Below are positions 1-25,042 of a stretch of 64,000 bases of DNA, piece by piece. Origin of the DNA: Opitutia bacterium ISCC 52. GTDB taxonomy: Bacteria; Verrucomicrobiota; Verrucomicrobiia; Opitutales; UBA2995. Below the pieces are notes generated by a model. That model did no database searches. It saw nothing but the letters and a program-made list of their open reading frames with translations, and was not told the origin of the DNA. The position numbers and the translations under genes are program-made. The number at the start of each line of letters is the position of its first letter. The first letter of the stretch is position 1. The stretch is taken from positions 3,119,894 to 3,183,893 of the forward strand of contig CP076040.1 of assembly GCA_014529675.2 (NCBI GenBank), in the 5' to 3' direction.

Positions 1-647
1 ATTGCCTGCCCCGGAGTATACCAAGAGCAAAAAGGAAATCTGACGAGGTTGCCTTGATATTCTTTTTCAATCTCTTTCAACGCACCAAAAACGAGGAGAT
101 CCTCTTTTTGGCCAATGTCCTCGGTATTATCAAAATAGACCTTGCCGCCAACAACAAGAGTAGGTTCGACCAACCCAAATTCGTGTAACACATGAGGCAT
201 AGAGTGATTGCCATCTAAAAACACGAACGATGGCGTTTTGCCTTCCAGGACTTCTGCTAACAATCTTAAGCTATCTCCCTGATAGGTATTTATCAAATCA
301 GATACTCCAGCTTCCTCAAAATTCTTTCGAGCAATTTGTAGATTCTCCTCTTCCAGCTCAATCGTATGAACCTTTCCTTTTGCGCCGGAATCTCTTAATG
401 CCTGGGCCAGAATAATGGTAGAATAACCCCAGTTGGTACCCGTTTCAATTATAGTGTGCTCTTGGTCTGGATCCAAGGAACACAAACAGCAATAATACAA
501 TAAATTCCAACCGGGATATCCCACGGTTTTTCCAGTACGTTTCTGGGCGGAAGCCAAATCTACTACCTCCTCTTCTCTTTGCCGAAGAAGAGGGTTGGGA
601 AGCAGCATCTTGTCGTAATCAAATTTTCTGTAGAATCGTGGGGTCAT
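1..647 (-). CDS. class I SAM-dependent methyltransferase (partial, runs off the window)
   Basis: About 215 codons are visible from an ATG at 647 down to base 1, where the window cuts the C-terminus. The reading frame has a SAM-binding motif (IIETGTNWGYST), a following acidic strand end (VHTIELEEEN) and a downstream FLDGNHS/YFDN pattern typical of the Methyltransf_24 type. The start overlaps the stop of the upstream coiled-coil methyltransferase as ATGA (644-647), so the two are translationally coupled. Its place at the end of a glycan export operon suggests methylation of a sugar or a glycan end, but the substrate is not shown by the sequence. Confidence 0.8.
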   Translation of the reverse strand, partial: MTPRFYRKFDYDKMLLPNPLLRQREEEVVDLASAQKRTGKTVGYPGWNLLYYCCLCSLDPDQEHTIIETGTNWGYSTIILAQALRDSGAKGKVHTIELEEENLQIARKNFEEAGVSDLINTYQGDSLRLLAEVLEGKTPSFVFLDGNHSMPHVLHEFGLVEPTLVVGGKVYFDNTEDIGQKEDLLVFGALKEIEKEYQGNLVRFPFCSWYTPGQA

Positions 648-2857
648 TTTTTAGCGTAAATAGCTGTGCGAAAAGCATGCCCGATAAATGTAAATTGGCT
701 CTTGATAATGCGACTGGCATCTACCGCTTCTTTAACTTCTGGCCACTGTCGTGACCCATAATCGTCAAACATAAACAATCCACCTTTCTTCAAAGTGTCG
801 GCATAATTCCGAATATCTAAAGCAACTCCTTTCCGAGTATGATCTCCATCCACAAAAATTAAATCTACTGAACGTTTCTTTACCTGCCTAACGATACGCT
901 TGTGGTGGCTAAACCCCTTGATTAATTCAAATTTTTCGGCATCCAATCCGCACTTATTTATGTTGTACCAAAAGTTGCGACTGTTTACTTCCTGCTTAGT
1001 AACAATGTCGAGCTGGCCGTGTTTATAATAGCCATCCAGAGGATCAATAACTTGGTATTTCAGCTCTTTTCCATATGCAGCACTTAACTCTTCGACGATA
1101 CACAAATTGATCCCAAATAGTGTTCCAATTTCTAAAATTCTACACTGCTTTCTTTTAAGGCCAAATACACTGATCAATCGGATGAGTGCATCTTGAATAT
1201 TAGTAGCTAAACGCCCCACGCAATCCTCTTCAATTTTGCAAATCTTGTGCGCAAGATATCCCATGGTATTAAAGGACATACTAAGCCCAAATAGTTCCAA
1301 CATGGGCTTAAGCGTTTCCTCGTAGTCTTTACGAACGAATCGGCGATCAAAAACTTGAAATGTATTGTAGTTAAAAGTGTTACTACGGTTAACGAGGTTT
1401 TCTATGTTTTTGGTAATTTGATTCTGTCTTTGGACATGACGCATGAAGGAGTCCTCGTTTTCCTTGATACTCACAAGATCAGTTTGAATCGTATTAATCC
1501 TATCCCCGCTTTGCTCTTGGTCAGACTGAAGACCTTTATCGTTTTTCAAAAGATCCATCAACTCCTGGTCAATCCTTGCCGCTTCCTTATCTAGACGAGA
1601 GTTAATCTTTTCAGCGTCTTTACTAAATTTATCCGCCATTTTCTCCAAATGGGAATCGACCTTCTCAAGGTCTTGAGCCGTTTTCTTTTCTAAGCGAGTT
1701 CGATTATCTGAAATAGACTTTTGAAGACTCTGCTTAGTCTCGGCAATCAGCTTCTTACTCTTCTGATTACTGGATAATAATTTCTCATTCAATGATTCAG
1801 CGTCTTTACTAAATTTATCCGCCATTTTCTCCAAATGGGAATCGACCTTCTCAAGGTCTTGAGCCGTTTTCTTTTCTAAGCGAGTTCGATTATCTGAAAT
1901 AGACTTTTGAAGACTCTGCTTAGTCTCGGCAATCAGCTTCTTACTCTTCTGATTACTGGATAATAATTTCTCATTCAATGATTCAGCGTCTTTACTAAAT
2001 TTATCCGCCATTTTCTCCAAATGGGAATCGACCTTCTCAAGGTCTTGAGCCGTTTTCTTTTCTAAGCGAGTTCGATTATCTGAAATAGACTTTTGAAGAC
2101 TCTGCTTAGTCTCGGCAATCAGCTTCTTACTCTTCTGATTACTGGATAATAATTTCTCATTCAATGATCCAGATGAAGTAGCTAACTTGTTACCGACCTT
2201 TTCCACCTGAGAGTTTGTTTTCTGTAAATCCTTTTCGATCGTCTTTCGTGAGGACTCCATCAAAGAAGTCAGTTCCTTGAATCGGCCAGTAAATTCTTTA
2301 TTTGCTTTTTTGAACGCATCTACATTTGCATCGATGAGCGTTTGAAACTTTAAAGTTTGCTTCCCATACTTCGTTTCAAAGCGATCAAGTGAGCGCTTCA
2401 AGTCCTTCCTTGCCGAATCAGCCTCCTTAATACGTTTGTCCGTGGAAAGAAACGCAGACCAAGTTTCTTCAGACAACTTCTTTAGCGATGCCGCATGATT
2501 TTCATTAGCTTTCGAGAGCTCATTCACCAAGTGCTGCTCAAACAAATCGACTCGATTAACTAACGTAGAAGAATACTCCTCGAGTGATTTCATCAATTCT
2601 TCTTCCACATAAATCACCTGTTTCCCGATATCACCAGTCACACGGTTTTGAATATCCAATCGTGAATCCAAAGCTCCCATGCGAGCGTTTATGGTTTGAT
2701 CAATTGTGATCAGATGCTTTTCGAGATCTTTGATAGCTACGTTTGTGCTTAACCATAACTCGTCAGAGTGATCTTCCTCTTTTGGCTTCGTTAAAAGAAT
2801 GATGTGAGAAGCAGCTAACACCAACAAGGCAGCTACAATGATTATATCAACTATCAT
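644..2857 (-). CDS. membrane-anchored coiled-coil protein with C-terminal methyltransferase domain
   Basis: The 737-residue protein starts with one membrane helix (about residues 3-23), continues as a long charged coiled coil (about 30-500) and ends in a class I methyltransferase domain (about 570-737; RILEIGTLFGIN motif I, VIDPLDGY, then FVDGDHTRKG and FMFDDYG). Residues about 231-416 are three copies of a 62-residue coiled-coil unit encoded by identical 186-bp DNA repeats. It lies one base behind the SGNH/GT/DUF115 gene and overlaps the next methyltransferase by ATGA, downstream of an ABC exporter with a Wzt-type ATPase. This recalls WbdD, the methylating and chain-length-determining capping enzyme of O9 O-antigen, though with the domains in reverse order. 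That role is inference; membrane helix, coiled coil and methyltransferase are read directly. Confidence 0.85.
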   Translation of the reverse strand: MIVDIIIVAALLVLAASHIILLTKPKEEDHSDELWLSTNVAIKDLEKHLITIDQTINARMGALDSRLDIQNRVTGDIGKQVIYVEEELMKSLEEYSSTLVNRVDLFEQHLVNELSKANENHAASLKKLSEETWSAFLSTDKRIKEADSARKDLKRSLDRFETKYGKQTLKFQTLIDANVDAFKKANKEFTGRFKELTSLMESSRKTIEKDLQKTNSQVEKVGNKLATSSGSLNEKLLSSNQKSKKLIAETKQSLQKSISDNRTRLEKKTAQDLEKVDSHLEKMADKFSKDAESLNEKLLSSNQKSKKLIAETKQSLQKSISDNRTRLEKKTAQDLEKVDSHLEKMADKFSKDAESLNEKLLSSNQKSKKLIAETKQSLQKSISDNRTRLEKKTAQDLEKVDSHLEKMADKFSKDAEKINSRLDKEAARIDQELMDLLKNDKGLQSDQEQSGDRINTIQTDLVSIKENEDSFMRHVQRQNQITKNIENLVNRSNTFNYNTFQVFDRRFVRKDYEETLKPMLELFGLSMSFNTMGYLAHKICKIEEDCVGRLATNIQDALIRLISVFGLKRKQCRILEIGTLFGINLCIVEELSAAYGKELKYQVIDPLDGYYKHGQLDIVTKQEVNSRNFWYNINKCGLDAEKFELIKGFSHHKRIVRQVKKRSVDLIFVDGDHTRKGVALDIRNYADTLKKGGLFMFDDYGSRQWPEVKEAVDASRIIKSQFTFIGHAFRTAIYAKK
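1611..2168 (-). repeat. three identical tandem 186-bp repeats inside the coiled-coil methyltransferase gene
   Basis: The same 186 bases occur three times in a row, starting at 1611, 1797 and 1983. By eye I find no difference between copies, including at third codon positions. The unit is 62 codons, so gain or loss of a copy keeps the frame. Identity at silent positions points to recent duplication or continuing homogenisation. Confidence 0.95.
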
Positions 2858-2858
2858 T

Positions 2859-5800
2859 TTATCCGTTGTTATATCCGATCACATTCAATGATCCGACTTG
2901 AATAGGGGAAATCAATTTATGTCCATTATTCTGAACTTCAATTGATCTATTGTTTGTTAGGAGATTCAGCATGATCCGTTTGTTCCCATTTCTAAATACA
3001 GCGGCGACATGATTGGCATTGGGCTGACAAGATCGACAAGGGAATCCACCAGAGATCTGGTAAGCGGACTTACCAAAGATATGCTTACGGCTTTGGCCAA
3101 GCTTCCCGAGAGAGATCCAATTTTCACCTTCCGGCATTACATCGAGAAGAAATTGTTTTTCACTTCCGGAAAAGTCCATTAATTCATTCACATTAACCTG
3201 CTGTGTTTCAATATCCACATCGATGGACTTCATGGGTACATCCGTGTTTAACGATCTTAAGCGCACAGCTTTGATCCGATGATCCAAGCCGAATTGAAAT
3301 GAATTTTCTCCCAAATTCACCAAACCATGGTTGGGAAGATAGACCAAGGATTCGTGATTGTTGTTTTGGGCCGTGACGGCGGGATCAGTGTTCGGTTCAA
3401 CTTCACTGTATGCCGGAGGTAATTGATATCGGAAGACAGAGTCAAAATTCACTCTTGGAAATATTTCAAGTTTACCACCATGAGTAGCATTGTAGACCTT
3501 TCGGCCACATCCTTCATAGGCAAGTTTGGCCTGCTTGTAGTTCATCAGTACTCGGTCAAGCTTGGGATCTTTCCATGATTTCCCCTTACCAAAATAATCT
3601 TTATGGAAGTGGTTAGGATCATCGGTATCAGAGACCAACACGTCCCCTTTCCGACTGTGACTCTCGGGGATGATATAAGAAAAATCCATACCGACCAAAT
3701 AGACTTCCGAGAAACCCATGAAAAAAGCTAGCTGCAAATTAATGTGTGTTACAGACTGTCCACAGTAGGCAATTTTGGAGAAATCTGTAGAAAACCGAGG
3801 GACACAATAATTGGGACTCGATTTCTCATAAAAGCCACGGTTCATCTTGAAAAAGAAAGTATTGTGGGCATCTCCATGCAGATTGCGGTAAATGGTCGGA
3901 AAAAACTTATATTGAGGGCGGTACTTTTTAATCGCGGCCAAGTTTTCTTTCATAACCGAAGAATCTTCTACCACAAAGAATGTGGGCATGAAGCCACTTT
4001 CTCTCGTTTTGTAGTAAAGTGAATTAACTCCAAAGGTGTACTCACTTTGAATTTTACCCAGGTCAATATTGTTAAGGCTGGGACCGTTGCCGATTATGAC
4101 ACACCGTTCTCCTTTGTACTTGTTGTAAAAGTGTTTCAACTCCGCAGATGGCTCCCTCGTATCCGCATATTCTTCGCGAGCAGAGTATTCATCCAAATTA
4201 GTAAACTCATCCGGGTAGATTGTATCCTTCGAGTCCACTACTGCGGGGAAGCTTCCAACGCATTCTGGCTTCGGTTTCAGTCCGTTTATTTCCAGGCTTT
4301 CCTTGTTGTATAAACAGGCATCTCCCCATTCCTCACTCTGCCTCCTAAATTGAACTAACTCTCTAATTTTGGGAGCATTCTCGTGATGGCAATACTGGTG
4401 AATGTAACTTCGATAGGTCAGTTCGGAATGGTATTTACAGCCATAGTTGGCTACTAAATGTTGGTAGATTTCATCGAAATTCTTCTTTTCCACATTATCG
4501 AGAGGATGCCAGAGATGGATGTATGATTCATTCTGAATCAGAACGGTTTCAGGGTCAGCTAATTCACAAATAGTGGCATCAAATGCACGATCTTCACAGG
4601 CATATCCCATATACTGTTCATACCCAGCGAGACGCTCGTAAGCTTCACAGGTAGCAATGAATATACCCCCCGTAATTGATACCGGATTTTTCAGGCTGTT
4701 CTCATCAAAATTCAACTTTTTCAAAGAAAGCGAAGCCCTGATATCACTAGCCTCTTCCTCTGAAGTATAGACAACATTTCGATAGGGTGAAACGAACTCT
4801 TTTCCCTTGTAACATTGAAGCACGGAAGAAAGAAATGAATTCCCAAGCAGCACATCTGTATCACAAGTGGCCACCACTGGAGTCGTTACAAAATGCTTAA
4901 CAGCAACATTGTATGCCCATCCACGGTTGTAGCTATCGGGATTAAAAATGAATTCATAGCGCTCCCCATGCTTGAGAAGGCTCTGATCAAACCTCTTTTC
5001 CGAATCTTGCTCTAACAAAATGACCTCAAATAGATTCGGAAAATATTTGTTCACCCAATCCAGCAGACACACCATATTGTCCAATCGACTAGGATCTCCT
5101 TCCTTGAGCCGGAAACCGATCACAAGCGAAGCAACTGGTCCCTCTCCTAAGCCATAGGATTGAAGAATTTTATCTCGTTTTTCAGCTGTGATTACCTCCG
5201 GTGGAGTAAAGGGGCTGACCGGTGTGTCAATTTTCCAGAATCCAGGAAAATAGCGAGTAACACACTTCTCTTCAACTTGATCTTCCTTACGATCGATGTG
5301 GTCCAAGACTCGGTTGAAGATAAAATTATTTCCCTCTTCGGTAAGATGTATGTTGTCTGTGGTATAAAGTTTTATTTCTCGATCTGTCCACGAAGACAAA
5401 TCCACCTGTTGCTTAATCTCCTTACTGTAGAGCTCAGAAAAATCGTGGATAATAGGCATGTTCCGTGGGCGTTCACGCGGGTAATCGCCATTCCAATCCG
5501 CTGCCATTCGATTGGTATTAATATAGAGCAAATTTGGGAGATCATTCAAAAGTGGGATCAACCGGAGCCTGGCCATATCCAATCCATACATATTAATGGT
5601 TTTCTCTCCGTTGTAGAATGAATCAAACGGAGCATCAAAATGTTCACTCATGGTCTCCTCACCGAAGATTCGGTCGAAGATCGGCTTTTTCCAATTACGG
5701 ACTTTGCGAGAATAATCCCTGGTATTTAATGAAAGATTTTCAGAATTCTCTTCCGTCTTACAATCGTACAAATCATGAACGGCGTTACTGAAAGGTCGCG

Positions 5801-6026
5801 GAGAGAAATCCACAATACCAGTCTGCAACACAATCAAGTCGTAAGCTTTCAATTGATCCCGATCAAAAGAAGATAAGAAATCTAGAGTAGTGGTCCACTT
5901 ATAGGGACAGTAAAAGCCATCCACTTTGAGCCCATCTAATTTGGCAAGCATGTCTCCGAAAACAAGGTGCTCAGTCCCCTGAGCGGTGTGTTGCCCACGA
6001 CTATCGGTAAATACTAATACATTCAT
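2859..6026 (-). CDS. three-domain glycan protein: SGNH-like domain, GT-A glycosyltransferase, DUF115/Maf-like domain
   Basis: The 1055-residue protein has an SGNH/GDSL-like N-terminus (residues 1-245; TDSRGQ near residue 7 in place of GDS, and DNIH at 224-227 as the block V Asp/His). A GT-A glycosyltransferase-like domain follows (about 297-520; metal-binding DTD at 389-391, late ED at 478-479). Then comes a DUF115/MptE-like domain (about 632-905; IIGNGPSLN, DPNHFH) and a roughly 150-residue C-terminal part I do not recognise. The DUF115 part is clearly paralogous to the protein at 8650-9489. DUF115 includes the Maf flagellin glycosyltransferases. The start overlaps the ABC ATPase stop by ATGA. 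I infer a glycan assembly or O-acyl-modifying role; substrates are unknown. Confidence 0.8.
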   Translation of the reverse strand: MNVLVFTDSRGQHTAQGTEHLVFGDMLAKLDGLKVDGFYCPYKWTTTLDFLSSFDRDQLKAYDLIVLQTGIVDFSPRPFSNAVHDLYDCKTEENSENLSLNTRDYSRKVRNWKKPIFDRIFGEETMSEHFDAPFDSFYNGEKTINMYGLDMARLRLIPLLNDLPNLLYINTNRMAADWNGDYPRERPRNMPIIHDFSELYSKEIKQQVDLSSWTDREIKLYTTDNIHLTEEGNNFIFNRVLDHIDRKEDQVEEKCVTRYFPGFWKIDTPVSPFTPPEVITAEKRDKILQSYGLGEGPVASLVIGFRLKEGDPSRLDNMVCLLDWVNKYFPNLFEVILLEQDSEKRFDQSLLKHGERYEFIFNPDSYNRGWAYNVAVKHFVTTPVVATCDTDVLLGNSFLSSVLQCYKGKEFVSPYRNVVYTSEEEASDIRASLSLKKLNFDENSLKNPVSITGGIFIATCEAYERLAGYEQYMGYACEDRAFDATICELADPETVLIQNESYIHLWHPLDNVEKKNFDEIYQHLVANYGCKYHSELTYRSYIHQYCHHENAPKIRELVQFRRQSEEWGDACLYNKESLEINGLKPKPECVGSFPAVVDSKDTIYPDEFTNLDEYSAREEYADTREPSAELKHFYNKYKGERCVIIGNGPSLNNIDLGKIQSEYTFGVNSLYYKTRESGFMPTFFVVEDSSVMKENLAAIKKYRPQYKFFPTIYRNLHGDAHNTFFFKMNRGFYEKSSPNYCVPRFSTDFSKIAYCGQSVTHINLQLAFFMGFSEVYLVGMDFSYIIPESHSRKGDVLVSDTDDPNHFHKDYFGKGKSWKDPKLDRVLMNYKQAKLAYEGCGRKVYNATHGGKLEIFPRVNFDSVFRYQLPPAYSEVEPNTDPAVTAQNNNHESLVYLPNHGLVNLGENSFQFGLDHRIKAVRLRSLNTDVPMKSIDVDIETQQVNVNELMDFSGSEKQFLLDVMPEGENWISLGKLGQSRKHIFGKSAYQISGGFPCRSCQPNANHVAAVFRNGNKRIMLNLLTNNRSIEVQNNGHKLISPIQVGSLNVIGYNNG

Positions 6027-7420
6027 TTAGAAAACACTTGATAAAATTTCTTTTCCATTTTGTTCAAACTTTTGATTTTGGACCATGTGGACCCAACAAA
6101 CACTTCACCGTAGTATCCTAGGTGATTCTTAACGGAGACAAATCCGCAATGTCTTCGGTATACAAAGGCAGGATCATTCTTTATTGCAACTGTAAGCCAG
6201 TATCTTCCCGAGTTTACAGGAAGAGCCTTCAATTCAATCTTCATCACGTGATGCCCAACACCTTTAATTGACCATGCGGGTTCAAAATCTCGACTATCAG
6301 GGCCCATGACCATTTTACCCGTATCATCAAAAAAAGGGAGACCAATTCGCAGATTCTTGCACTCCTTTAGCAGCCTAAAACTTAGAAAACCAACGAGAGG
6401 CTCACCCGCAAAATGCATATAGAATCCATTTTCATCGCGTTCCATATTCAAAAAGAACTCAACGTCTGTTATAGTTTCCTCTGCTTGGTATTCGGGGCCA
6501 AAAAGGCTTTCAATGGTTTTCGCATCGAGACCATACTTTGAAAAATCAGTCTCAACCACTTTGGCTTTTTCATCGGATTCCTTTTCCTTTGAAACAACCA
6601 CCGTTTCCGGTGACTCCTCTTCAGAGCCCCTTATCTTCTCCCTCACCTCGAACGTATTCAGCTTTGCATTACAAAAAGAATAGTGCTTCAGGACCTGTTT
6701 AGGATCACCGATACTTATCATTTCCCCCTTATGCAGAAGAATAGCCACATCGCAAAACTGCAGAATGTTTGCGTTGCTATGGGATACCAGAATGAAGCTG
6801 CTTTGATTTTTTAATTCGATGATCTTTTCAAAGCACTTTTGTCTAAAATCAAAATCACCTACTGCAAGTATCTCGTCGCAGATAATTATCTCAGGTAAGA
6901 AATGTACCACAATCGAAAAACCGAGTCTCACCTGCATGCCACTACTGTAAGTTTTAACCGGTGAATTTATAAAATCACCCAAGTCCGCAAACTTCACAAT
7001 TTCCTCCAGTTTGGAATCAATCTCGGCTTTGCTTTTACCCAACAAGACACCCTTATTATATATATTCCGAACACCATCCAATTCAGGATGAAAACCTGCG
7101 TTAAGCTCTATGAGTCCTCCCGCTTGACCATTAATTTCTACCTCACCGTGATTTTGTGCAATCCGCCCCAATATCACTTTGAGCAAGGTACTTTTCCCAG
7201 CACCATTCAAACCAACAATCCCAAGAGACTTTCCAGGCTTTATTTCAAAGCTGATATCACGAAGCGCCCAAAATTCTCCAGAGCGGGCTTCTCGCTCGGG
7301 AGCGGGCATACCGATAATCTCTCTCAATAAACGTACAAGCCGACGCTTTCTTCCCTCCTCTGCGTCGATGGTATACTTTTTGGAGACGCTACTGACCCGA
7401 ATGGCAAAGTCCAAAGACAT
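6023..7420 (-). CDS. polysaccharide ABC exporter ATP-binding protein, Wzt-like
   Basis: This 465-residue ATPase energises export of an undecaprenyl-linked polysaccharide across the inner membrane. The nucleotide-binding domain carries Walker A (GLNGAGKST), the Q-loop region, the signature YSSGMQVRL, Walker B (IIICDEILAVGD) and the switch His (LVSHS). After a charged linker (about 255-300) there is a C-terminal beta-rich domain of about 140 residues, as in O-antigen Wzt proteins, where that domain recognises the modified non-reducing end of the chain. The start follows the permease stop by one base, and the stop overlaps the next gene. A chain-terminus-recognising exporter beside a coiled-coil methyltransferase supports a capping system. 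Confidence 0.93.
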   Translation of the reverse strand: MSLDFAIRVSSVSKKYTIDAEEGRKRRLVRLLREIIGMPAPEREARSGEFWALRDISFEIKPGKSLGIVGLNGAGKSTLLKVILGRIAQNHGEVEINGQAGGLIELNAGFHPELDGVRNIYNKGVLLGKSKAEIDSKLEEIVKFADLGDFINSPVKTYSSGMQVRLGFSIVVHFLPEIIICDEILAVGDFDFRQKCFEKIIELKNQSSFILVSHSNANILQFCDVAILLHKGEMISIGDPKQVLKHYSFCNAKLNTFEVREKIRGSEEESPETVVVSKEKESDEKAKVVETDFSKYGLDAKTIESLFGPEYQAEETITDVEFFLNMERDENGFYMHFAGEPLVGFLSFRLLKECKNLRIGLPFFDDTGKMVMGPDSRDFEPAWSIKGVGHHVMKIELKALPVNSGRYWLTVAIKNDPAFVYRRHCGFVSVKNHLGYYGEVFVGSTWSKIKSLNKMEKKFYQVFSK

Positions 7421-7421
7421 C

Positions 7422-8267
7422 CTACAAAATCTTATCTACGTAACGCTCCCCTCGATAAAAGATGGTTATGGAAAAAACAAACAACAGGAAAATAACAATA
7501 CAGGATGTGGCAGTAAAGGGAGCGATGGCATCCACGCCACCAAATACGTAATCTCTTGTTCTTCCAATTATCTGGTATAATGGGCTCGCTCTCAATAAGT
7601 CCCATACTTTCCCCTCTGCCTCGATCTGCCTGAATACACCAGATGCAAATAACAAATAAAAAGAAATGATCTGTACCAGGTTAGTAATGTCCTTATAAAT
7701 AACAGCAAAGAGGCTAAGCATAAGCCCTACAACCCAGCCAAGGCTCATCATCATCGCAGACCAAAAAAGAATACTAACTCCTCTTATTCCGATTTCCACA
7801 CCCATGCTTTGAACAATAATCCAGAATAGAATACTTCGAACTACAAAATTAGTAAGCGTCCCAAGAATCTCAGATAAACTCAGTAATATCTTGGACGTAC
7901 CACTAGAAATGATGACACTCCGGTTGTTCGTAATAATACCAGTTGTAGTAACGAGTGCTTCCGAGAAACTGTAGTAGAGAGTCAGTCCATAGGTTAGAAA
8001 AACAGACCGCGGAATCCCTCCTTGTGGATCGCCGAATAAGCCAGCTAACTGCAAAAAGTTATAGAGAACAACCGGAACTATAGGTGTTACAATGACCCAG
8101 ACCTTACCCAATGCAGTATCTTCATATTTATGAAGGTAATTCTTTGAATAAAGACTCAGAATCACGATCCTCCCATTTTTCCACTCAAAGAAAAATCGGC
8201 CGAACGAAGCCAGCGGCCCTACCCTTTTCTGCTTTTGCTTTCCGGCCGCCATTTCGTTTACTTTCAT
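7422..8267 (-). CDS. polysaccharide ABC exporter permease, ABC-2 type, Wzm-like
   Basis: The 281-residue integral membrane protein has about six predicted helices and the ABC-2 layout seen in Wzm/TagG exporters. A cytoplasmic N-terminal stretch holds ..RNYLHKYEDTALGKVW-like sequence, related to the 'RY..S.LG..W' motif of this family. It pairs with the Wzt-like ATPase one base downstream. Two starts are possible: the ATG at 8267 and an in-frame ATG four codons later (MAAGKQ). Neither has a clear Shine-Dalgarno sequence. The 382-base gap upstream suggests its own promoter. Confidence 0.92.
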   Translation of the reverse strand: MKVNEMAAGKQKQKRVGPLASFGRFFFEWKNGRIVILSLYSKNYLHKYEDTALGKVWVIVTPIVPVVLYNFLQLAGLFGDPQGGIPRSVFLTYGLTLYYSFSEALVTTTGIITNNRSVIISSGTSKILLSLSEILGTLTNFVVRSILFWIIVQSMGVEIGIRGVSILFWSAMMMSLGWVVGLMLSLFAVIYKDITNLVQIISFYLLFASGVFRQIEAEGKVWDLLRASPLYQIIGRTRDYVFGGVDAIAPFTATSCIVIFLLFVFSITIFYRGERYVDKIL

Positions 8268-8649: not shown

Positions 8650-9489
8650 CTAAAACAACCCGGTAAAGGTAACTCGCGGAAAGACCTCTAACTCACCACC
8701 TACAGTCGCATTTAACAGCTGGACCCCGAGCTCATCACATTTTTCCTTAACCCTGCCGTAACCATAAAGCTGCCCTCCGACGTTTGGCGCTGTCCAGGGA
8801 TCCCCCTTCTTAAAGTAATCCGGATGAAAATGATTGGGATCAGACTCCCCTTCCATTGTGAGAGCAAAGTTTTTTATAAGCTCCCCAGTGCCTGGATCAC
8901 GTACCTCGCCAGCACCTTTGGCCAGCCCTTCGGGCATCATCCACTTGGCATCGGTACCAATCAAATAGATAGGATTAAAGCCCATAAATACAGCTAACTG
9001 AATACAGGTGATAGTAACCGTATTGGGGGTTCTCAGGAAATCAGGTGGGTTGGTGGCAAAGTAGCCATCTGGTCCCAGGGATGGGTCCTGCAATTGTTCC
9101 CTGGTCCATACAATATTCTCACGGTCTTCCCAGTCTCGCAATCCGGCATACTGTTCCGGCATAAAAAAGGTTGTATCAGTTAGCTCCAAGGTCTGAGCGT
9201 CAATTTCGGGAGAGATACTCGGAGTCACCCGATGGTCGACGGCGCAATAAAACTTAGGACGCCAATCGATACGGTCATAAAATAAATGACACCGGTTAAC
9301 CCCCCAGACTACTTCATCCTTCAGTTTCTCCAACGGCGTCTGATTCAGACTGGGACCATTTCCCATTACAAAACAGCGCTGCCCTTTGTATCTATTTCTA
9401 AATCGTTTAAACTTCTTGAGATTCGGCCGTGACTGAGACAGTGAGCCTTCGCTCCCCCATAAGGACTTAATCGACTCAAAGAAACTCAT
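8650..9489 (-). CDS. DUF115 / MptE-like (Maf-related) protein
   Basis: The 279-residue protein matches the C-terminal domain of the 1055-residue fusion: FRNRYKGQRCFVMGNGPS, the DPNHFHPDYF segment and NATVGGELEVFPRV are shared almost motif for motif. DUF115 (PF01973-like) includes archaeal 6-hydroxymethylpterin kinase MptE and the bacterial Maf transferases that use CMP-nonulosonic acids. Its gene lies 8 bases after a CMP-sugar synthetase gene, so a CMP-sugar-using role is plausible. That assignment is inference from context; only the family resemblance is seen. Confidence 0.8.
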   Translation of the reverse strand: MSFFESIKSLWGSEGSLSQSRPNLKKFKRFRNRYKGQRCFVMGNGPSLNQTPLEKLKDEVVWGVNRCHLFYDRIDWRPKFYCAVDHRVTPSISPEIDAQTLELTDTTFFMPEQYAGLRDWEDRENIVWTREQLQDPSLGPDGYFATNPPDFLRTPNTVTITCIQLAVFMGFNPIYLIGTDAKWMMPEGLAKGAGEVRDPGTGELIKNFALTMEGESDPNHFHPDYFKKGDPWTAPNVGGQLYGYGRVKEKCDELGVQLLNATVGGELEVFPRVTFTGLF

Positions 9490-9497
9490 CCCAAGGA

Positions 9498-10208
9498 CTA
9501 AGCAGGTGGGTGTGCTGTCTGCACCAACATCTCAGCCAATGCAATTATTTCAGCTATACGCCATTGGGTTGCATTATCGATATCCGCTGACTCTAAAGTG
9601 GGGGTAGGAAAAAGAATGGGTGCTTCCCCTATCCGTGCATTCGTCGCTTTGAACGAATTCTTAGTGAATATGTATAGGTTCGAGTTTTCCTCATACCAAG
9701 GCTCCAACTCCTGAGTGGGGAGCAACACATTTGGATCATGATTCACTGCCGAACCATCATCGCGATAGAACCGAGTTTGGTACTCGTTGACGGTAAAAAG
9801 GCTATCTTTTCCATCCTCCGCCACACCTTTGTTATAGGCCTGGAGAGCTTCCTGAAGAGTAGGTCCACTTAGGAGAGGATTCGTGGTATGAGTCATGACG
9901 AACGTCTCAGCATCGATGGCTTCAAGATCGTCTTCAATGACAAGGTTCATACTCACATGATCACCACAAATCTCAGGCTTACGGTCTCGGATAAGAACTC
10001 GATCGGTGTCCACAAGACCATTCTCTTTTAGAATCTCGCGAGCATCCGTGTTGATTACAATTTTCTCAATTTCCTCAACAAAGAGAAGCGTATCCAGGAT
10101 CCAGCGAAATAGCGGCTTACCAGCAAAGATCCGAAAGTTCTTTCCTTTGACGCGAGCACTATGGGCTTTCATGGGTAGCAAGGCCACCGTTTTGTAGGAT
10201 TCAGACAT
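9498..10208 (-). CDS. CMP-sugar (acylneuraminate-type) cytidylyltransferase
   Basis: The 236-residue protein is of the NeuA/KdsB-like family, which activates 2-keto-3-deoxy sugar acids with CTP. The N-terminal nucleotide-binding motif LLPMKAHSARVKGKN fits the family LPAR.gS.r...KN signature, followed by GKPLFRWILDT, an IVINTDA strand and the THTTNPLL segment. Length is normal for the short single-domain form. It sits between the aldolase gene and the DUF115 gene on the same strand with short gaps. The precise sugar (neuraminate, KDO, another ulosonate) cannot be read from the sequence. Confidence 0.85.
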   Translation of the reverse strand: MSESYKTVALLPMKAHSARVKGKNFRIFAGKPLFRWILDTLLFVEEIEKIVINTDAREILKENGLVDTDRVLIRDRKPEICGDHVSMNLVIEDDLEAIDAETFVMTHTTNPLLSGPTLQEALQAYNKGVAEDGKDSLFTVNEYQTRFYRDDGSAVNHDPNVLLPTQELEPWYEENSNLYIFTKNSFKATNARIGEAPILFPTPTLESADIDNATQWRIAEIIALAEMLVQTAHPPA

Positions 10209-10231
10209 AATATCAGATTTAGAACGTTGCG

Positions 10232-11002
10232 CTAAAGTGAAGATCGAATCTTAGACAAGGCATTCCGACAAGATTCCAGCACCATGGTAATATCCAAACT
10301 GTAGGCCATGAGTTGGTAGCCCTCTTGATTCTGTTCAATGAATAAATCCGCATCGGGTGGCACCACATGAATCCCAGGGGCAATGCCCTTTGCTTTGCAT
10401 GCATTCAGCACCCGAGTCCTGGCCTCGATGTAGTCAGGATGGTCAAACTGAGCCGTCAATCCCATGGACGCAGAAAGGTCATAAGGCCCAACAAACACCG
10501 CATCAATTCCTTCCACTTCCAGAATGTCATCAATGCATTCGACCGCATCTATATGTTCAATTTGAACAGCCACAAAGATGTCATCATTGGCCGATGCCAC
10601 GTTGGTCTCGAGATTCGCACCATATTGATTTGCTCGGCAAAACCCGACTCCTCGATTGCCCATGGGAGGATACTTGGTAGCCTGTATTAGCAATTCCGCA
10701 TCGGCGCGGTTCATCACCAAGGGTGCGATAATCCCCTGAGCTCCAGCATCTAGGTATCGTTTAACCAGTGAGTAGTCTACTCCATGTAATCGGATGACAT
10801 TAGCGCAGTTGGGATTTCCAGAGTGCATGGCCTGGAACATTTGCTGAACTTGCGGCAAATCCACAGCCGAATGTTCTGCATCAATGCACAGGAAATCAAA
10901 TCCTGTCGTGGCCATGAGCTCGGCTATCGCCGGGCTACCCGAATTAATCCAACTGCCAATAAGCGTTTCTCCGGCTTTCAGCCGTTTTCTGATAGCTTCC
11001 AT
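10232..11002 (-). CDS. HpcH/HpaI family aldolase (class II pyruvate aldolase)
   Basis: A protein of about 256 residues that in this family makes or splits 2-keto-3-deoxy acids from pyruvate and an aldehyde with a divalent metal. Seen are GSWINSGSPAIAEL, the catalytic His strand (DFLCIDAEHSAVD), QIEHIDAVECID with the metal-binding Glu, and FVGPYDLSASMG with the metal-binding Asp. I chose the ATG at 11002 (MEAIRKRL), which matches family N-termini; a GTG at 11023 would add seven residues. Most relatives are catabolic (HpaI, RhmA, GarL). Here it lies directly before a CMP-sugar synthetase gene in a glycan operon, so a biosynthetic role is possible. Confidence 0.88.
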   Translation of the reverse strand: MEAIRKRLKAGETLIGSWINSGSPAIAELMATTGFDFLCIDAEHSAVDLPQVQQMFQAMHSGNPNCANVIRLHGVDYSLVKRYLDAGAQGIIAPLVMNRADAELLIQATKYPPMGNRGVGFCRANQYGANLETNVASANDDIFVAVQIEHIDAVECIDDILEVEGIDAVFVGPYDLSASMGLTAQFDHPDYIEARTRVLNACKAKGIAPGIHVVPPDADLFIEQNQEGYQLMAYSLDITMVLESCRNALSKIRSSL

Positions 11003-11092
11003 AAGGATAAGTAAGTCGAGCACTTACCCATGACCAAGCAGAAGAAGAAATCAAGCGATTAAGTTGACGAAGCAATAATACCGTCTAACAGC

Positions 11093-12364
11093 CTAAATAA
11101 TCATCCCTGCTCCAACGGTTACATTGGTATTTGGATCGACTAAAATGAAGCTACCGGTGCTACGATTATTTTTGTAGCTATCGTGAAAAAGTGGAGCTGA
11201 AACACGGAGGCAGATGCGGCCAATCTCGTTGAGACTAATTTCGGGTTCACCTTCGATTTTGTGGAGGGTGTTGACGTTTACCTTGTAACGAGTTTCCCGA
11301 ACGATGGCTTTAACTTCCTTGGTGGTGTGCTTGAGGAGGTAGCGGCCTCCAACTCTGAGCGATGAGCTTTCAGAGAACCAACAGATCATAGCTTCAATAT
11401 CCTGCCCCACTTTCGGTTTGTTGTTGGGCTTCACGATCATGTCTCCACGACTGATATCAATCTCGTCGTAGAGAGTCATGGATACCGACTGTGGAGCAAA
11501 GGCTTCGTCAAGCTCACCATCCATGGTGTGGATAGCTTTGATGCGACTGGTAAATCCGGAAGGCAATACCGTGACTTCATCACCTGGCTTAAAAACGCCA
11601 CTGGCAACTCGTCCCGCATAACCACGGAAATCATGGTGCTCTGACGATTGAGGCCGGATAACCCATTGCACGGGGAATCGAGCATCTACATGATTTTGGG
11701 CATCTCCTATATAAACTGTTTCCAGGGTTTCCAGAAGAGGTGCTCCTCCGTACCAAGGCATATTTTCGGAGCAATCGACTACATTGTCCCCCAATAATGC
11801 ACTGATAGGAATGAACCGAACGTCCGCGACATCCAAGCGTGAGGCAAAGCTTCGGAAATCGGCTTCTACTTTGCGGAAGGCCGCTTCATCGTAGTCCACC
11901 AAGTCCATCTTGTTTACACAGACGACCAAGTGCTGAATCTTCAGTAAGGTGGCGATAAATGCGTGGCGGCAGGTTTGCTCCACTACCCCGTTACGAGCGT
12001 CTACCAATAGAATAGCCAAGTTGGCGGTAGACGCTCCAGTCACCATATTCCGGGTGTATTGAATATGCCCCGGAGTATCCGCGATGATAAATTTCCGTCG
12101 AGGAGTAGCATGGTAGCGGTAGGCTACATCAATGGTAATTCCCTGCTCTCGTTCGGCTTTCAGTCCGTCAGTCAGCAAAGCGAGGTTTACGTTTTCATCG
12201 CCTCGTTTTTTGGAGGAGGTTTCAACAGCATCCCATTGATCCTCAAAGATGGATTTACTATCATAAAGAAGGCGCCCAATCAGGGTGCTTTTTCCATCAT
12301 CGACACTCCCCGCCGTAGTGAAGCGAAGCAGGTCCATTTCGTTTTCTTTTATTTCTGATTCCAT
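11093..12364 (-). CDS. cysN: sulfate adenylyltransferase subunit 1 (GTPase subunit)
   Basis: CysN couples GTP hydrolysis to formation of adenosine 5'-phosphosulfate by CysD. The 423-residue protein has the EF-Tu-like G motifs: G1 (AGSVDDGKST), G3 (ADTPGHIQ) and G4 (NKMDLVD), then the beta-barrel domains. It is slightly shorter than E. coli CysN (about 475) and carries no fused CysC kinase, which is encoded separately. An internal ATG (MDLLRFTTAGS, nine codons in) is an alternative start. It follows cysD after 110 bases with no gene. Confidence 0.96.
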   Translation of the reverse strand: MESEIKENEMDLLRFTTAGSVDDGKSTLIGRLLYDSKSIFEDQWDAVETSSKKRGDENVNLALLTDGLKAEREQGITIDVAYRYHATPRRKFIIADTPGHIQYTRNMVTGASTANLAILLVDARNGVVEQTCRHAFIATLLKIQHLVVCVNKMDLVDYDEAAFRKVEADFRSFASRLDVADVRFIPISALLGDNVVDCSENMPWYGGAPLLETLETVYIGDAQNHVDARFPVQWVIRPQSSEHHDFRGYAGRVASGVFKPGDEVTVLPSGFTSRIKAIHTMDGELDEAFAPQSVSMTLYDEIDISRGDMIVKPNNKPKVGQDIEAMICWFSESSSLRVGGRYLLKHTTKEVKAIVRETRYKVNVNTLHKIEGEPEISLNEIGRICLRVSAPLFHDSYKNNRSTGSFILVDPNTNVTVGAGMII

Positions 12365-12474
12365 CCTAAATGCAAATTTCGTTTTTCGGTTACTCGTTTA
12401 AGAGGTCAAACCTTGAATCCGTTGACTAGGCAAAGCTTCGTCAAGATTGCAAGGAATGACCCCGACCTTATAAC

Positions 12475-13377
12475 TTAAAAGTACCCTTCCTTCTTCCGAT
12501 CTTCCATCGCTGTTTCGGAACGTTTGTCATCCGCACGGGCTCCGCGTTCGGTCACACGAGCAGCGGCCACTTCTCGGACGATGTCCTCAACGGAGTTGGC
12601 CGGAGACTCAACAGCACCAGTATTGGTCATATCCCCTACGGTGCGGAAGCGAACCACGCGTTCTTCCGATGCTTCATCATCTGACAAGGTAACGAATTCT
12701 GACTCGGCCAGTAAAACTCCCTGCCTGCTAAAGACATTTCTTTTGTGAGAAAAGTAAATGGGCGGCAGCTCAATATTCTCCCAGAGGATGTATTGCCAGA
12801 TATCCAATTCCGTCCAGTTGCTCAAAGGGAACACGCGGAAATTTTCGCCAAAATGCTTATTGCCATTAAATATATTCCAAAGCTCAGGGCGTTGGTTCTT
12901 TGGATCCCATTGTCCAAATTCATCCCGATGAGAAAAGAAACGTTCTTTAGCTCGCGCCTTTTCCTCATCTCGTCGAGCTCCACCCAAGCAGGCGTCGAAG
13001 TTGTGCTCCTCAATCGCATCCAGTAAGGTCGTGATCTGCAGACGATTTCTGCTGGCATTGATCCCCTTCTCTTCCGCAACCTTGCCCTGGTCGATCGAAT
13101 CCTGGACGAGTCGTACGATCAATCGTTCACCCAAACGCTCCACCAGCTCATCGCGGAACTGAATCGTCTCCGGGAAATTGTGCCCCGTATCCACGTGCAT
13201 AAGCGGGAAAGGCAATTTGGCAGGGTGAAAGGCCTTGAGCGCGAGGTGAAGCATCACGATCGAGTCTTTACCGCCCGAAAATAGTAAAACTGGATTCTCA
13301 AATTGAGCGGCTACTTCGCGCATGACGAAGATCGCTTCGGATTCCAGTTGTTTGATATGGCTTAATCGATAGTCCAT
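12475..13377 (-). CDS. cysD: sulfate adenylyltransferase subunit 2
   Basis: CysD is the ATP sulfurylase catalytic subunit making adenosine 5'-phosphosulfate. The 300-residue length is normal. The PP-loop (LLFSGGKDSIVML), GGARRDEEKARAKER and a final basic tail DRKKEGYF are visible. It lies 22 bases after cysC and upstream of cysN in one transcription unit. In a glycan locus such sets usually feed sulfotransferases through PAPS, but no sulfotransferase gene is visible inside this window. Confidence 0.97.
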   Translation of the reverse strand: MDYRLSHIKQLESEAIFVMREVAAQFENPVLLFSGGKDSIVMLHLALKAFHPAKLPFPLMHVDTGHNFPETIQFRDELVERLGERLIVRLVQDSIDQGKVAEEKGINASRNRLQITTLLDAIEEHNFDACLGGARRDEEKARAKERFFSHRDEFGQWDPKNQRPELWNIFNGNKHFGENFRVFPLSNWTELDIWQYILWENIELPPIYFSHKRNVFSRQGVLLAESEFVTLSDDEASEERVVRFRTVGDMTNTGAVESPANSVEDIVREVAAARVTERGARADDKRSETAMEDRKKEGYF

Positions 13378-13399
13378 TCGTTTTTTTGAAATTAAAATT

Positions 13400-14011
13400 T
13401 CAGGTGCTCTTTATGGAGCCTGAGAGCTGATCGTAAAGGCTGTTTGAGCATTCCAGGACAGTTTTTGCTTCGGTATTTACAATTATCGCAGAATCACCTT
13501 CCGGTGGTTCGAATGCAGAATCCTTACCGGTGAATTGTTTTAGCTCTCCCGCTTTTGCTTTGGCATACAAGCCCTTAACGTCGCGCTCCGCACAAGTCTC
13601 GAAGGAGGCTTCCACATAAATCTCCGTGAAATCGTCAGTACCAATAATAGAGCGGGCCTGCTCTCGCAGTTCTATTTTGGGAGTAATAAAGGAAACCAGG
13701 GTCACAATACCCGATTGAGCGAACAGCTTGGCCACCTCAGAAATCCTCCGAATGTTTTCGGATCGATCTTCGTCGGAGAACCCCAAATTGCTATTCAGTC
13801 CGGTGCGAACGTTATCTCCGTCCAAAATTTGCACAAAATACCCTTCAGCAAAGAGCCTTTTCTCCAATGCATAGGCCAAAGTGCTCTTCCCCGAACCCGA
13901 TAATCCGTAGAACCAAAACACGTGCCCGCGCTGGTTTAAGCGGCCTTCCTTCACTTCTCGTGGAAGTAGTCCGGAGAAATCCGGATGTATTTCTTTAGTT
14001 TCTTGGGTCAT
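13400..14011 (-). CDS. cysC: adenylyl-sulfate kinase
   Basis: This 203-residue P-loop kinase phosphorylates adenosine 5'-phosphosulfate to PAPS. Walker A GLSGSGKSTLA, the LDGDNVRTGL substrate loop, NIRRISEVAKLF and the KGLYAKAKAGEL segment are all present. It is the first intact gene of the minus-strand glycan operon. An AGG about seven bases before the ATG at 14011 may be its ribosome-binding site. Immediately upstream is the end of a decayed membrane-protein frame. Confidence 0.96.
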   Translation of the reverse strand: MTQETKEIHPDFSGLLPREVKEGRLNQRGHVFWFYGLSGSGKSTLAYALEKRLFAEGYFVQILDGDNVRTGLNSNLGFSDEDRSENIRRISEVAKLFAQSGIVTLVSFITPKIELREQARSIIGTDDFTEIYVEASFETCAERDVKGLYAKAKAGELKQFTGKDSAFEPPEGDSAIIVNTEAKTVLECSNSLYDQLSGSIKST

Positions 14012-24510: not shown

Positions 24511-25042
24511 TTAAGTGAAGAAGTTCTATTAGTTGACTTCGTAGATTTCAATCAAAGCAATGCCGGGAAGGTCCAGCGGGTGATGGCCCGCCTGTTCGAA
24601 GAGTATGGCGCTCCTGAACACATCCGCAGCGATAATGGATCGGAGTTTATCGAAAAGAATCTTTCGTGAATGGCTCACTCGTGAGAAGATCAAGACGCTC
24701 TACATCGAGCTGGGCAGCCCCTGGCAGAATGGATACATCGAGAGCTTCCATGCCCGCTTGCGTGAAGAGTGCCTAAACCGCGAACAACTATGGACCTTGA
24801 CCGAAGCACGAGTGGTAATCGGTGACTGGCGTTGGAAGTATAATCACATCCGACCGCACAGGTCCCTTGGCTACATCAGTCCAATCAAGTTCGCTCAACA
24901 ATTAACTCAAGAGAACTCTGAACAAGGCTCTGGCTCCACTCGGCCTACGGCCTCCTTCCTCCAGAACCTTAACTTCCTCTACAACCTGAACCACATGATT
25001 ATAACCTCCAGACTAACAAAGCAGGTGGCCCAGTTTGGGTAA
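24511..25042 (+). pseudogene. IS3-family transposase (OrfB) fragment, frameshifted
   Basis: Only the C-terminal part of an IS3-type DDE transposase remains. The first piece (to about 24666) reads VMARLFEEYGAPEHIRSDNGSEF, with the second catalytic Asp in DNGSEF. One extra base near 24655 shifts the frame. The second piece (from about 24656 to 25042) reads EWLTREKIKTLYIELGSPWQNGYIESF with the catalytic Glu, then IRPHRSLGYISP. OrfA, the first Asp and the left end are missing. A likely right end (ending near TGGCCCAGTTTGGGTAAC) is at about 25000-25041. It separates the methyltransferase from the next GT2 gene and marks an old insertion in the glycan region. Confidence 0.88.

Follow-up and report, generated by a model that had tools for sequence, protein, structure and literature searches.

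A putative NeuB-free CMP-ulosonate module built on an HpcH/HpaI aldolase in a glycan locus of Opitutia bacterium ISCC 52

To our knowledge, ulosonic acids destined for CMP activation are made by PEP-dependent synthases, NeuB and KdsA. Pyruvate-type aldolases are mostly catabolic; SbnG is an HpcH/HpaI-fold enzyme that has been recruited to biosynthesis, that of staphyloferrin B. The locus described here has an HpcH/HpaI aldolase gene next to a gene for a CMP-sugar synthetase-like cytidylyltransferase. With the KdsA-KdsC-KdsB pathway to CMP-Kdo, it would share the logic of joining a C3 unit to a sugar (phosphate) aldehyde, together with a cytidylyltransferase of the same Pfam family and, in some of its relatives, a HAD phosphatase, but the aldolase replaces the PEP-dependent KdsA, and the cytidylyltransferase scores far under the cut-off of the KdsB model (24.5 against 193). 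With the NeuB-NeuA, PseI-PseF and LegI systems, it would have in common CMP activation, a best NCBIfam match to PseF and a DUF115 protein as in Maf systems, but the genome has no gene of the NeuB family and the PseF score is 63.8 for a cut-off of 205.7. The Shewanella sfm flagellin cluster was considered as a precedent and discarded, since it has NeuB and is not comparable. SbnG, whose structure 4tv5 is matched by the window aldolase, makes citrate, whereas the product proposed here is a sugar acid. In the E. coli nan pathway, YhcH/NanQ accompanies the aldolase NanA (PMC8141875), and relatives of our locus likewise pair a DUF386 gene with a 2-keto-acid aldolase. NanA, however, is catabolic and belongs to a different, Schiff-base family of aldolases, whereas the enzyme studied here is a metal-dependent HpcH/HpaI protein whose gene shares a glycan locus with that of a cytidylyltransferase.

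The window, i.e. the whole stretch of DNA that was analysed, spans 64,000 nucleotides. A preliminary description had proposed that an aldolase, a cytidylyltransferase and a DUF115/Maf-like protein, encoded in that order in one glycan locus with short gaps, make, activate and transfer a 2-keto acid in the absence of a NeuB or KdsA synthase. The order is confirmed by the open reading frames and by Pfam scores over cut-offs (Table 1), and the gaps are of 23 bp (aldolase/cytidylyltransferase) and 8 bp (cytidylyltransferase/DUF115), with 382 bp between the trio and the next downstream gene. The trio is flanked by a glycan locus, transcribed from the minus strand in the order cysC, cysD, cysN, aldolase, cytidylyltransferase, DUF115/MptE-like gene, ABC exporter pair, 1055-aa protein gene and methyltransferase gene. 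The end of cysN lies 90 bp from the aldolase ATG at 11002; a GTG at 11023 is an alternative start (10232-11023, 263 aa), the ATG being the one that fits the length of homologues. The claim that the window has no NeuB or KdsA synthase holds as well, no gene of either type being recognised among its open reading frames.

Table 1. Genes of the locus, with window coordinates and the evidence for each assignment
Feature	Coordinates	Strand	Evidence
Coiled-coil protein with C-terminal methyltransferase domain	644..2857	-	PF13578 45.8 bits
1055-aa protein with MptE-like domain (residues 628-785)	2859..6026	-	PF01973 70.3 bits
ABC exporter ATPase, Wzt/TagH type	6023..7420	-	PF00005 69 bits; TagH-type models
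Putative ABC exporter permease	7422..8267	-	assigned by position beside the ATPase
MptE-like/DUF115 protein, candidate ulosonyltransferase	8650..9489	-	279 aa; PF01973 46.8 bits (cut-off 34.6)
CMP-sugar synthetase-like cytidylyltransferase	9498..10208	-	236 aa; PF02348 59.1 bits (cut-off 22.6)
HpcH/HpaI class II (metal-dependent) pyruvate-type aldolase	10232..11002	-	256 aa from ATG; PF03328 124.7 bits (cut-off 25)
cysN, sulfate adenylyltransferase large subunit	11093..12364	-	TIGR02034 567.6 bits
cysD, sulfate adenylyltransferase small subunit	12475..13377	-	TIGR02039 438.9 bits
cysC, adenylylsulfate kinase (PAPS supply)	13400..14011	-	TIGR00455 217.3 bits

The genome consists of one contig of 4.82 Mb, with an estimated completeness of 97.8%. 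The preliminary description had called for a search for NeuB beyond the window. The profile of the NeuB/PseI/LegI synthases (PF03102), which found matches in 9 of 14 genomes as a control, had none in this genome, so that the core idea survives. Beyond the window the absence of a synthase is nevertheless true of NeuB only, since KdsA and KdsB are found elsewhere in the genome. Three proteins match PF00793, including a KdsA-type protein of 268 aa whose gene adjoins pyrG at 4.60 Mb, about 1.47 Mb from the trio and outside its locus, and two match PF02348, the window cytidylyltransferase and a 249-aa KdsB-type protein (4.18 Mb), these KdsA and KdsB assignments being made from sequence reading, size and context. 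Plain Kdo synthesis was rejected as the main reading: with ordinary KdsA and KdsB at two other genome sites, there would be no need for another Kdo activator.

Our main reading, to which we give a probability of about 0.6, is that the trio would be a NeuB-free CMP-ulosonate module with the aldolase in the synthase role. We infer its reaction direction, donor, acceptor, phosphatase step and transfer as follows. The metal-dependent aldolase would condense pyruvate (or hydroxypyruvate) with a sugar aldehyde, which might carry a phosphate to be removed later by a HAD phosphatase, and the resulting 2-keto acid would close into an ulosonic acid. The cytidylyltransferase would then use CTP to activate the anomeric hydroxyl, giving a CMP-ulosonate, and the reversible aldol step would be drawn in the synthetic direction as pyrophosphate is released and hydrolysed. 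Finally, the DUF115/MptE-like protein or another local glycosyltransferase would add the residue to a surface glycan, which the ABC system would export. In favour of the module are the contiguity of the trio and the one-contig genome without NeuB; the idea is strengthened by the conserved adjacency and intact catalytic residues, and by the YhcH/NanQ-type anomerases and HAD phosphatases found in the cassettes of relatives. Against it stand the KdsA and KdsB genes elsewhere in the genome, the usually catabolic nature of pyruvate-type aldolases, and a window with neither a local anomerase nor a local phosphatase gene. The preliminary route from aldol addition to CMP activation and transfer is thus supported in part, by conserved gene order, intact residues and the lack of NeuB in the genome; the pyruvate donor, the aldehyde and the synthetic direction are its conjectural parts. 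What would be new is the aldolase in place of a NeuB or KdsA synthase, the CMP-ulosonate logic being already known. No literature linking this gene combination was found among open-licence papers, and as only these were searchable, the novelty is provisional. The module offers a small, concrete set of enzymes for testing.

The conservation of the pair was examined on the best 80 cytidylyltransferase relatives among the matches listed (60-95% identity), whose loci were mapped by tblastn and then analysed by profile searches. The closest relative among these matches belongs to a syntenic locus (L019) of an uncultured Opitutales MAG, with 95% identity for the cytidylyltransferase. An aldolase was present in 10 of the 80 loci, a D-2-hydroxyacid dehydrogenase in 64, neither in 6 (four of which, L025, L040, L075 and L095, are incomplete on one side), and both in none. 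This exclusion gives a value of 5e-9 in Fisher's test, in which the loci are not independent, the aldolase loci forming nearly one clade. NeuB, KdsA and KdsB were absent within 6.5 kb in all 80. That most of these loci lack the aldolase counts against the module, and the pairing seen in the window clade may go back to a single event in its ancestry.

A search of 387 genomes of Verrucomicrobiota found the aldolase clade, at a score of at least 417 bits, in 7. In five of them (the window genome, G001, G210, G274 and G310) a cytidylyltransferase of at least 414 bits lies beside it; as loci L038 and L036 seem to belong to G310 and G001, respectively, the additional genomes with the pair are G210 and G274. 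In G270 the two genes are again adjacent, but divergent in sequence, at 268 and 256 bits. Four of these six paired genomes are free of NeuB (the window genome, G001, G310, G270), and the NeuB genes of G210 and G274 are outside the fetched neighbourhood. Farther away, an alphaproteobacterial plasmid carries aldolase, cytidylyltransferase, dehydrogenase and HAD genes in one run, and the aldolase and the dehydrogenase are both present in loci L014 and L107. In L117 (G320:C499) a run comprises a cytidylyltransferase, a dehydrogenase, an aldolase, a KdsC-like HAD and PseB-/PseC-like genes (the HAD and PseB-/PseC-like genes recognised by eye), one stop being flagged by the search in the cytidylyltransferase stretch. 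That the three window genes are chance neighbours with separate roles is very improbable: glycan loci are in general mosaics, but the same order and spacing are seen across several genera of Verrucomicrobiota, and recur in divergent pairs.

In the 64 loci with a dehydrogenase instead of an aldolase, the cytidylyltransferase is about 60-70% identical to that of the window. The usual order in relatives is a UlaG-like metallo-beta-lactamase-fold or SMP-30 protein, a GT2, the cytidylyltransferase, the D-2-hydroxyacid dehydrogenase and an SDR, though cassettes vary (65 of the best 80 relatives have the GT2, 46 the SDR and 42 a lactonase-like gene); L032, L083, L069 and some 60 other loci have such a cassette without NeuB or KdsA nearby. 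The metallo-beta-lactamase-fold protein reaches 63 bits with the L-ascorbate-6-phosphate lactonase model and 67 with that of a generic metal-dependent hydrolase, both under cut-off; the best matches of the SDR include glucose and aldose 1-dehydrogenases, and those of the dehydrogenase include PGDH and GhrB. UlaG-like and SMP-30 proteins never occur together: among 66 loci with room for them, 22 have one of the two, 13 the other and 31 neither (p 0.003, uncorrected for kinship). Judging by these family matches, the cassette enzymes would fit a conversion of aldose to lactone, aldonate and 2-ketoaldonate, in which the SDR would act as aldose dehydrogenase, the UlaG-like or SMP-30 protein as lactonase and the D-2-hydroxyacid dehydrogenase in the last step. 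This suggests a second, possibly oxidative route to CMP-ulosonates in the relatives. As the cytidylyltransferase relatives collected here span about eleven phyla, many as MAGs, we put forward only tentatively, as a possibility we rather doubt, that a widespread family serves CMP-ulosonic acids made independently of NeuB and KdsA by two unrelated routes, the aldol one in Verrucomicrobiota and the oxidative one elsewhere. If either the reversible aldolase or the oxidative route is real, searches keyed to NeuB and KdsA miss ulosonate-bearing glycans.

The aldolase keeps D41, E43, H44, R71, Q147, E149 and D175 in an alignment with YfaU and GarL; these include the metal-binding Glu/Asp (E149, D175), the catalytic Asp-His pair (D41, H44) and the Arg (R71). 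Roles of corresponding residues have been described for E145 and D171 of SwHKA (PMC10099721) and for Arg70 and His45 of HpaI (PMC8560999). The 14 window-type aldolases form a single clade (support 99/99) with invariant catalytic residues, separate in the tree from YfaU, GarL and the other HpcH/HpaI proteins of the genome. The enzyme thus resembles HpaI, GarL, YfaU and SwHKA in fold, metal and catalytic residues, but differs from them by its separate clade, its glycan context, and scores below every equivalog cut-off: 178.1 for HpaI (cut-off 368.8), 154.2 for GarL (406.75) and 153.1 for YfaU (441). With such scores, and a sequence outside those branches, transfer of function from HpaI, GarL or YfaU was rejected. 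Position 212 is a His in the window-type clade and in most looser relatives, and a Leu in YfaU; since its alignment with F210 of SwHKA is uncertain, it was left out of the argument on the donor.

Pyruvate might not be the donor. Hydroxypyruvate in its place, a refinement that overlaps with the main reading, is in our view unlikely, and so to the same degree is its product, a 2-keto acid with a 3-hydroxyl, of a class that the dehydrogenase cassettes could make by oxidation. The AlphaFold model of the aldolase (mean pLDDT 90.3) matches 4mf4, SwHKA, HpaI, GarL and YfaU at Z scores of 31-33, tied or nearly so, and the donor is thus not decided by structure. SwHKA, a structurally close HpcH/HpaI member (Z 32-33), does use hydroxypyruvate (PMC10099721), but HpaI and YfaU are equally close or closer in sequence and no residue-level evidence for donor choice was obtained. 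The 60-70% identical cytidylyltransferases in loci with a D-2-hydroxyacid dehydrogenase, an SDR and a lactonase-like gene, and the coexistence of aldolase and dehydrogenase in L014 and L107, agree with this donor.

Returning to the main reading, some gene partners in the cassettes of relatives are in keeping with ulosonate chemistry. In L026, L115 and L116 a DUF386 (YhcH/YjgK/YiaL) gene immediately adjoins that of the aldolase; in L027 it is close by, and in L087 farther away. The L027 protein exceeds the cut-off of TIGR00022, and scores 60.8 bits, under cut-off, with the N-acetylneuraminate anomerase equivalog. YhcH supplies NanA with the open form of the cyclic acids Neu5Ac and KDN, and is of no benefit with a short acid that is largely open-chain (PMC8141875); by analogy, the DUF386 gene is a hint that the product is mostly cyclic. 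HAD phosphatase genes are present in L014 and L027. In the window genome, the single DUF386 gene is unlinked to the aldolase.

The main rival of the module, which we hold to be quite improbable, is a NanA-like cleaving enzyme that salvages or limits an ulosonic acid coming from the unlinked KdsA or from uptake. KdsA is indeed present in the genome, and this kind of aldol reaction is described as reversible (PMC8560999). In addition, the aldolase clade occurs without a cytidylyltransferase (none at E below 1e-50) in G345 and G375, which argues against the proposed module. In G345 the window-type aldolase has housekeeping neighbours; in G375 a DUF386-aldolase run with a TonB-dependent receptor looks catabolic. 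(At L100, G375:C13, 5891-7161, the DUF386 gene overlaps the aldolase start by a few bases.) However, no importer adjoins the window genes, NeuB is wholly absent from four of the six paired genomes, and, given the KdsB of this genome, activating plain Kdo would not call for another enzyme.

The cytidylyltransferase belongs to a clade of its own in the NeuA/PseF/KdsB superfamily, of low similarity to characterised CMP-sugar synthetases. Its best solved relative is a CMP-Neu5Ac synthetase (6ifd), whose C-terminal ESADID stretch it shares exactly; the aspartates of this motif bind metal in NeuA enzymes. A quick tree (SH-aLRT support only, midpoint root) places the aldolase-paired sequences in one 15-row group (SH-aLRT 95) with L031, which has neither partner, and L023, of dehydrogenase type, a grouping that favours the module; this group sits among dehydrogenase-type sequences of many phyla. 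The simplest reading of these sequences would be one activating enzyme with a swapped acid source; as the root is a midpoint, the direction of the swap is tentative. E. coli and Enterobacter plasmid relatives (~29% identity), on a distant branch, were set aside as a different system because NeuB is local in the E. coli one (L016), and the cytidylyltransferase had no match in phage records. In L024, a divergent (26% identical) cytidylyltransferase-like gene, which misses the usual N-terminal motif, lies at 7321-7998, with the aldolase on one side and the main cytidylyltransferase on the other.

The 279-aa DUF115 protein has no match to any NCBIfam model, including the full-length Maf/PseD model; the label "Maf-like" is therefore justified at the level of the domain, and not for this short protein as a whole. 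MptE-like genes are found near the cytidylyltransferase in 48 of the best 80 relatives. This association of DUF115 proteins with the cytidylyltransferase family, the retained ESADID motif and the ulosonate-anomerase relatives accompanying the pair all weigh against a further alternative, in which the cytidylyltransferase would activate a non-ulosonate, e.g. a 2-hydroxy acid from neighbouring dehydrogenases, and the aldolase would supply an unrelated precursor. We regard it as improbable by a wide measure, even with the dehydrogenase in 64 of the best 80 relatives and the low similarity to characterised enzymes.

Regarding the rest of the locus, L019, L020 and L026 likewise have cysN upstream of the aldolase, and keep the cysC/cysD/cysN segment (11093-14011 in the window) wholly or in part; the sulfate-activation genes at this place suggest a sulfated glycan. 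The putative permease, which has no Pfam or NCBIfam family match, is 92% conserved at the same place in L019, and the ATPase has a Wzt_C score of 20.1 bits, under cut-off. The coiled-coil part of the 644-2857 product contains a unit of about 65-70 residues in three near-identical copies. Finally, an open reading frame at 24605-25042, which by eye looks like the C-terminal portion of an IS3-type transposase, is probably a remnant within the glycan locus.
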